DNA from: Gemmatimonadota bacterium
Lineage (GTDB): Bacteria > Gemmatimonadota > Gemmatimonadetes > Gemmatimonadales > Gemmatimonadaceae
Length of the DNA: 64,000 bases
Direction of reading: 5' to 3'
NCBI GenBank assembly: GCA_016871915.1
Contig: VHBP01000001.1
Coordinates: 1 to 64,000 of the forward strand
Shown here piece by piece: positions 18,891 to 57,490 of this stretch. Within the stretch, counting starts at the first letter, position 1, and each line of letters begins with the position of its first letter. The notes beneath the pieces are model-generated. The model saw only the letters and a program-made list of their open reading frames with translations, did not search any database and was not told the origin of the DNA. A program made the translations under genes and the position numbers.

Positions 18891-19183
18891 TCAGGCGCCT
18901 CGAAACCCGCTCCGCGCCATTAGGTTCACGAGCGCCACGATCGAGCCGACGGCGAGGCGCCCCTTCATTCGATCCTTGTGGAGGGCCACGGTGCGCTCGG
19001 TGATCCCGAGGCACTGGCCGATCTCGCGCGCGGTCATTCCATTGGCGACGAGTGCGAGGAGCTCCTCGCACTCGTCGCCATGCCGAGGACCGTGGTTCAG
19101 GTCCCGGCGTGATAGGCGAAGACGTCGAGGAGGAGCTGGTGCTCGTCAGCGACCAGGACGTTCGGGAGGTCCGTGGTCGGCTG
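18891..19183 (-). pseudogene. Remnant LuxR/NarL-type response regulator
   Basis: Receiver-domain start TDLPNVLVADEHQLLLDVFAYHAGT* followed by out-of-frame intact HTH: GDECEELLALVANGMTAREIGQCLGITERTVALHKDRMKGRLAVGSIVALVNLMARSGFRGA*. Confidence 0.8.
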
Positions 19184-22508: not shown

Positions 22509-22610
22509 CGTTGCAACTCGTCCGCAGGCGGGGCAAGGCGGCGAGGCCGGTCGATGGCGTCGCGCCCCACTTGCTCTTGCCCGGTCCGTGGTCTACTACT
22601 TCCCCTGTAA

Positions 22611-22693
22611 GCCGCCAGGGGTATCCCGCGTCAGCGGGGTTGAGACAGTCCCTTGGAACCTGACCCGGTTCAGACCGGCGTAGGGAGCGCGGC
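22611..22693 (+). promoter_or_regulatory. TPP riboswitch (THI element)
   Basis: AGGGGTATCCCGCG...TTGAGACAGTCCCTTGGAACCTGACCCGGTTCAGACCGGCGTAGGGAG; closing stem GCCGC/GCGGC. Confidence 0.93.
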
Positions 22694-22765
22694 GTGACTC
22701 GATGACCGTCCGCGTGGGCGGCGCGAGCACGACGATCCCGACGCCTCTCCGTTCGAGGATCTTCA

Positions 22766-56532: not shown

Positions 56533-56933
56533 CTGATGATAGGAGAAGGTGGGGACGGATTGGCCGACCGCCAGAAGCTCCTACAATAGTGGAGCTCGAC
56601 GATTCGTTCCAAGCCAGCCATTTTGGCTCGAATCGATGGTGGGCGGTTGATCGGCGGTTCCCCTGGAGCTGATTCAGGCCGGCTGATCAAAGGCCTTTGG
56701 TCCGTGTTGGGGCACACTGGGGCAGGGGGGAAGGGAGGGCGCAGTCAGGCGCCAAATTGTTGATAACTTTCCCTTCGCGATGACCATCTGCCGTCCGGAT
56801 CATACGTTCGGCTGGATCTCGGCGCCGTTTTGTTGACAAGAAGGCGATCTTCGCGCCTTTCTTCGTAAATCACTCGATATATTTCATTGTAAAACCATAT
56901 TTTGTGGGAGTTTACAGATATGCACTAAAGCAA

Positions 56934-56963
56934 ATTCCGTATGCAAATAATTGCATACGGAAT
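56934..56963. repeat. Perfect 13-bp inverted repeat in AT-rich intergenic block
   Basis: ATTCCGTATGCAA-ATAA-TTGCATACGGAAT; additional half-site GCATACG at 56975-56981. Confidence 0.95.
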
Positions 56964-57160
56964 CATTTTGTCCTGCATACGCGATGTGGATAGGCGCCGT
57001 TCAGCTGATTAGTCACTTTCCTGCTTTTCAACACCATCGCTTGACCCGATATCCCGGCCGTCACGCCCTGCCTCGCAATGTGGAAAAATCAGACTGGATC
57101 TCCCACGCTACGGTAGCAATTCAGCCAGGGCACTCCCGTCAGAACCAGCACCCGCCGTTA

Positions 57161-57192
57161 CCTGGTCCCTGACCCCTCCCACCTGACCCCTG
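57161..57192 (+). repeat. Tandem 14-bp repeat CCTGGTCCCTGACC / CCTCCCACCTGACC / CCTG
   Basis: Direct reading; same family as 581-612. Confidence 0.8.
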
Positions 57193-57230
57193 AACCTAAT
57201 CTGCCACTCCGGCACATGGCAACCGGGCAA

Positions 57231-57316: not shown

Positions 57317-57490
57317 TCAAGACTCAGCCTTCTTCTTCCGCGCATCCATCACCCAGGTCACCGGGATGATGAAGAAGGGGGTCAGGAAGAGGCCGAGGAG
57401 GATGTTGATCCAGGTGAGGCCGAGGTAATAGGCGCCCATACCGAGCCCTGCGATGAGGGTGCCGAGGGGGCCGCCGAAGTTCTGCTCCAC
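57317..57490 (-). CDS. Small membrane protein (57 aa, GTG start)
   Basis: Hand translation MEQNFGGPLGTLIAGLGMGAYYLGLTWINILLGLFLTPFFIIPVTWVMDARKKKAES*; followed by a minus-strand terminator. Confidence 0.65.
   Translation of the reverse strand: MEQNFGGPLGTLIAGLGMGAYYLGLTWINILLGLFLTPFFIIPVTWVMDARKKKAES

Follow-up and report, generated by a model that had tools for sequence, protein, structure and literature searches.

Non-coding loci that control DnaA from outside oriC are best known from Escherichia coli. The E. coli loci datA, DARS1 and DARS2 lie away from oriC and carry DnaA boxes together with conserved sites for other proteins, separated by variable spacers (PMC4585315). In Vibrio, crtS is a single non-coding site off the origin through which initiation control can be influenced; it acts on a second chromosome via RctB. 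For Gemmatimonas species, within the Gemmatimonadota, Tomasch et al. (2024; PMC11237797) reported a strand-biased region of 600 kb around ter that contains the rRNA genes, and suggested that it forms an isolated domain.

We describe here an AT-rich block between pntAA and tilS in a 64-kb stretch of DNA from a Gemmatimonadaceae genome (the window). Like datA, DARS1 and DARS2, it is a non-coding single locus at a conserved place far from oriC, in which DnaA-like boxes and putative sites for another protein are separated by variable spacers. Unlike them, it has TGCATA half-sites where E. coli has IHF and Fis sites, and its boxes are largely lost in one genus; the likeness would be functional, and no sequence homology is claimed. 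Likeness to crtS would be by analogy, as a single non-coding site off the origin, whereas the complete relative G012 consists of one contig.

A conserved single-copy element between pntAA and tilS

The G+C content of positions 56856 to 56975 is 33.3% (68% for the window), the lowest of all 120-bp stretches in the window; more than 400 bp from the block, the next-lowest value is 53%. The initial annotation had put this stretch at about one-third G+C, and had placed within the block a perfect palindrome, ATTCCGTATGCAA-ATAA-TTGCATACGGAAT (56934-56963), a third half-site, GCATACG, at 56975-56981, and DnaA-box-like 9-mers at 56758, 56831, 56985 and 57079. We recovered each of these, and when the block was shuffled 2000 times by mononucleotide, no palindrome with 13-bp arms arose. 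The three half-sites listed are present, but a fourth, TATGCA at 56919-56924, had escaped notice. Nor do the boxes all share an orientation, as had been claimed: a conserved reverse box, TTTTCAACA at 57025-57033, had been missed. The features of the block are as follows.

56758-56766, plus strand: outer DnaA-like box TGTTGATAA; the three closest species have TGTTGATAA, TGTTGATAA and TGTGGATAA, all at -139 from the profile start
56831-56839, plus strand: box A, forward DnaA-like box TGTTGACAA; found in most genus members (see below)
56851-56911, no strand: AT-rich stretch left of the half-sites; composition kept, sequence not (44% invariant columns, three species)
56895-56917, plus strand: block B, degenerate in the window species (genus consensus TATAGAATGC..GTTAC; alignments A2 and A4)
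56896-57033, plus strand: conserved element as a match to profile R1 (75.8 bits, window sequence in the training set; one match per genome)
56919-56924, minus strand: half-site TATGCA; kept in the three closest species
56934-56963, no strand: perfect palindrome with half-sites TATGCA (56940-56945) and TGCATA (56952-56957); arms conserved in three species, unique in the genome
56974-56981, plus strand: further half-site TGCATACG; GCAT nearly invariant in the 30-sequence alignment
56985-56993, plus strand: inner DnaA-like box TGTGGATAG; TGTGGA kept in three species
57013-57016, plus strand: block D, TCAC (usually ATCACA); TCAC invariant in 30 of 30 aligned sequences from four genera
57025-57033, minus strand: box E, reverse DnaA-like box TTTTCAACA; at a fixed spacing after TCAC (see below)
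57079-57087, plus strand: outer DnaA-like box TGTGGAAAA; conserved in three species, with similar boxes in G001 and G009

The gap between pntAA and tilS had been described as lacking a recognisable large gene; that description overlooked a conserved ORF of 57 aa (57317-57490, minus strand) between the block and tilS. The ORF shows 59-69% identity across genera, no Pfam family was found for it, and its product is probably a small membrane protein. Downstream of tilS, where the genes had been named tilS-ileS, sequence points to a hypoxanthine phosphoribosyltransferase-like gene and ftsH.

The block with its palindrome is thus a genuine DNA element, non-coding and present in single copy, that is conserved in four genera of Gemmatimonadaceae. 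Two further species of the genus have it in the corresponding position, with 79% and 68% identity, and in close relatives invariant columns make up 81% of the 81 bp around the half-sites, 80% of the pntAA 5' end and 35-54% of the flanks. In further members of the genus the array is found in new surroundings: upstream of either pntAA or a DJ-1/PfpI gene, or beside an M48 peptidase gene. In the element, a DnaA-like box is followed after about 65 bp by an AATGC..TTAC block and three or four TGCATA half-sites, and after about 34 bp more by TCAC and then a reverse DnaA-like box; from block B to TCAC it measures about 116 bp. Block B, the half-sites, TCAC and the reverse box keep this order across a 13-species alignment of the genus, with a length of 138-142 bp throughout. 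Near-constant length with variable spacers is as in a phased protein complex.

A first, sequence-only profile was built from 13 genus members, the window's own sequence among them. It found one copy in each of these 13 genomes, as expected because they built the profile. Independent of this training set, genera g13, g20 and g33 also gave clear single matches. A second profile, with the g13, g20 and g33 sequences included, was used to search 288 genomes of the order. Conservation in relatives, which the initial annotation had proposed as a check, was borne out: the element was detected in 39 genomes, one copy each, all from the four Gemmatimonadaceae genera, including 13 of 17 genomes in the window's genus and 11 of 11 in g13. 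The four genomes of the window's genus without it are assemblies in 230-550 contigs. In the remaining genera of the order the profile gave no match, nor did other genera show such an AT-rich array before tilS, with L254 and L259 as a possible weak exception. Among 80 named loci around tilS (all labelled metagenome-assembled, most of them Gemmatimonadetes or Gemmatimonadaceae), 23 contain the element, with identical orientation relative to tilS in all 23. Alignment A3, in which row G185 is misplaced, was left out of all conclusions. Our literature searches on Gemmatimonadota origins yielded nothing on the element.

DnaA-like boxes and a candidate control site

Sequences with at most one mismatch from TGTGGATAA, on either strand, occur at four places in the 64-kb window, and three of these are among the four 9-mers of the block. 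Around 29 elements we counted 38 DnaA-like 9-mers, compared to a mean of 1.9 and a maximum of 9 in first-order Markov shuffles. The boxes are thus enriched about 20-fold, and they lie at fixed spacings. A DnaA-like 9-mer corresponding to box A precedes the profile start by 64-66 bp in 11 of 13 genus members, the intervening sequence not being conserved, and TC[AC]AC, corresponding to box E, follows TCAC by 15-19 bp in 18 of the 35 elements compared, which come from four genera; the background is about one per 5-bp bin. Neither the outer box at -139 nor the inner box was seen at the corresponding place in other genus members. In several g20 genomes, TGTGGATAT is fused to a TATGCA half-site.

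The number of boxes varies between genera. Elements of the window and its closest relatives carry three to five, but no strict DnaA box lies near the well-kept half-site array in most g13 genomes, or in G015 and G005 of the window's own genus. The box-poor g13 genomes are the main weakness of a reading based on DnaA, and together with G015 and G005 they suggest that DnaA may be accessory or not involved.

We tentatively favour, as possible rather than probable, a single-copy non-coding control site that would be bound by DnaA, with a second protein on the TGCATA array, and that would work like datA and DARS. As judged from the sequences compared, DnaA would bind the flanking boxes, A in forward and E in reverse orientation, as well as the extra boxes. 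A putative second DNA-binding protein, probably dimeric, would sit between them on the three or four TGCATA half-sites, and could hold the complex together and set the geometry of the boxes. By analogy with the E. coli loci, such a site would most likely modulate DnaA by titration or by a change in its nucleotide state. Although the element shares with datA and DARS a non-coding single locus outside oriC with DnaA boxes, the DARS core has at least three DnaA boxes in all members, which is not the case in most g13 genomes; we therefore suggest that the element works like these loci rather than being a member of the group. Since it was not found in other genera, any such control of DnaA would be clade-specific. 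A precise, single-copy candidate in a deep and little-studied phylum makes the generality of DnaA control outside oriC testable.

At G012:C1:1400074-1401609 (L117) lies a gene for a protein of some 640 aa in which two DnaA ATPase domains are arranged in tandem, and relatives of it are present in G003, G005, G006, G008, G010, G015, G016, G038 and G065. The Pfam DnaA DNA-binding (C-terminal) domain was not found in this protein, and its gene lies 24-46 kb from pntAA where both share a contig. As an obligatory partner of the element it was rejected, because the small genomes G000 (that of the window), G013, G009 and G011 carry the element and have a single DnaA match each.

Position on the chromosome

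The initial annotation had suggested an origin-like or DnaA-controlled region, to be checked by GC skew and the location of dnaA. The origin-like make-up, with enriched boxes at fixed spacings, agrees with the first part of this suggestion, but the element is not the chromosomal origin by skew, dnaA or parS. In two complete or near-complete relatives the skew turns near dnaA and parS, more than 1.2 Mb from the element. G012 (one contig, 3.26 Mb) has dnaA at 0.4 kb, parS at 21.6 kb and the element at 1,377 kb; its third-position skew, calculated for per-strand gene sets, rises from about -0.2 to about +0.15 in the region of dnaA and parS, around 0-60 kb, and no change of sign was seen around the element. 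In G005, which was sampled, dnaA is at 2,980 kb, parS at 2,959 kb and the element at 1,715 kb, and the skew is positive to about 1.4 Mb and mostly negative thereafter. Thus parS lies about 20 kb from dnaA in both relatives, and the element 1.26-1.38 Mb away. In the window, the excess of G over C is still rising through the block and onward along the contig.

The element does resemble a bacterial oriC: it is intergenic and AT-rich, has an inverted repeat, and carries a cluster of DnaA-like boxes that point both ways, the densest such cluster in the examined sequence of the window's genome. Nevertheless, it lies away from the skew minimum and far from dnaA and parS in G012 and G005, and another AT-rich gap with DnaA-like boxes is found beside parB. 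We therefore rejected the element as chromosomal oriC, and consider it extremely improbable that it serves as the main origin. The gap beside parB in the window's genome (G000:C16:18870-19035, L026), about 18 kb from dnaA, is the better candidate and likely the real oriC of the lineage. An AT-rich gap with DnaA-like boxes is also present near 18.64-18.77 kb in G012 (L051), with a neighbouring gene that differs from that in the window's genome.

A secondary or relic replication origin could account for the DnaA-like boxes, AT-rich stretch and repeated short sites, and for a neighbouring region whose genes run away from the element. We regard this as very unlikely, because the skew does not change sign at the element in G012, no such change could be made out in the contig of the window, in G005 or in G128, and GC skew, dnaA and parS all indicate another place. 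The element was also considered as dif, the 28-bp XerCD site at the skew maximum, and rejected: the best dif-like scores fell elsewhere, with no match at the element. In G012, ATACTTATAATATGTATTATGTATTG (G012:C1:1606129, L127) resembles dif weakly, lies close to the skew maximum and is a candidate dif.

Counted from the origin, the element is situated about 80-85% of the way to the point opposite on the chromosome, with the 16S gene roughly 145-185 kb off, on the tilS side, in the genomes compared. Within 60 kb, 88-100% of coding bases are on one strand on the tilS side, while the other side is mixed (39-63%). Using a crude ORF caller on five genomes of three genera, we placed the change point in gene strand, relative to the element, at +649 bp in G000, +492 bp in G128, +1,865 bp in G055 (weakly supported), -5,967 or +2,265 bp in G012 (nearly tied) and -6,009 bp in G035. 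In all five genomes, the element is therefore within about 6 kb of the switch from mixed to nearly one-way gene orientation, and appears to mark the origin-proximal edge of the published strand-biased region. The published work treats gene strand rather than a cis-element (PMC11237797), and a search of its text found no mention of tilS, oriC or a motif.

These positions bear on a different role, that of a terminus-domain border element, which would isolate the strand-biased region as a boundary, condensin or nucleoid-protein site, the DnaA-like boxes being secondary. The nearby change point in five genomes of three genera and the proposed isolation of the 600-kb ter region (PMC11237797) are in its favour, but a domain has two borders and each genome a single copy, tilS may merely be the first gene of the domain, and the domain is reported in Gemmatimonas species while the element was not found in the order's other genera. 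The element is therefore not the general cause of the domain, and we think this role unlikely. Returning to DnaA, the two ideas can be joined: the DnaA-box element may mark and help to set the origin-proximal border of the terminus domain, linking the arrival of the fork to DnaA activity or to domain isolation. This too is unlikely, if slightly less so; were it true, the element would be the first known cis-element of the Gemmatimonadota strand-biased domain. Its place at the edge of such a domain also makes it a defined target for deletion in studies of how these domains are bounded.

Operator, RNA and acquisition as alternatives

The half-sites could alternatively serve as the operator through which a dimeric regulator controls genes nearby (pntAA, DJ-1/PfpI or others). 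A multi-half-site operator had been among the options of the initial annotation, and a search for GTATGC(N)nGCATAC elsewhere had been among its proposed checks. The array is indeed palindromic, with conserved half-sites, and lies upstream of pntAA or a DJ-1/PfpI gene in the window and several relatives. However, GTATGCAA-N0-8-TTGCATAC occurs once in the whole 2.07-Mb genome, and paired half-sites are essentially one per genome, so a regulon was rejected; pattern matches on G003 C8 and G129 C137 are not copies of the element, which lies on C43 and C6, respectively. The flanking genes converge on the element in G012, in G005 and in some genomes of g13, so that it is not simply a promoter and is not placed there at that of a regulated gene. 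Moreover, pntAA is preceded by a conserved block of its own (about 56590-56640). With a sole paired site in the genome and convergent flanks in some relatives, an operator for a neighbouring gene is decidedly unlikely.

Block B of g13 and of two g20 genomes contains a strong inverted repeat that is maintained through paired changes. In g13 (L162, L163, L167, L168, L170, L171, L172 and L175) it reads GCGAACTTAC-N4-GTAAGTTCGC, changed in G188, for example, to GCGAGCTTAG-N4-CTAAGCTCGC. A symmetric protein site or a hairpin could either of them give paired changes, and the repeat falls outside the DnaA control-site model. Together with the window palindrome, which fits a terminator-like pattern, it speaks for a small RNA gene or a transcribed regulatory element. 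Against this, RNAalifold predicted no base pair on the 13-species genus alignment, Rfam gave no match over the element, no consistent promoter was seen, and the half-sites are kept as sequence and in both orientations, like protein sites. We judge an RNA to be unlikely, though slightly less so than a secondary origin.

Recent acquisition, the remaining suggestion of the initial annotation, was rejected, as the element is a syntenic single copy beside tilS in several genera and had no match in phages or plasmids.

Two further features were noted elsewhere in the window. The longest perfect palindrome in the window, at 19043-19080, has 19-bp arms (GGCGACGAGTGCGAGGAGC/GCTCCTCGCACTCGTCGCC) and no spacer, and apparently lies inside a coding stretch. 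A TPP riboswitch is located at 22607-22704 (Rfam RF00059, 62 bits).
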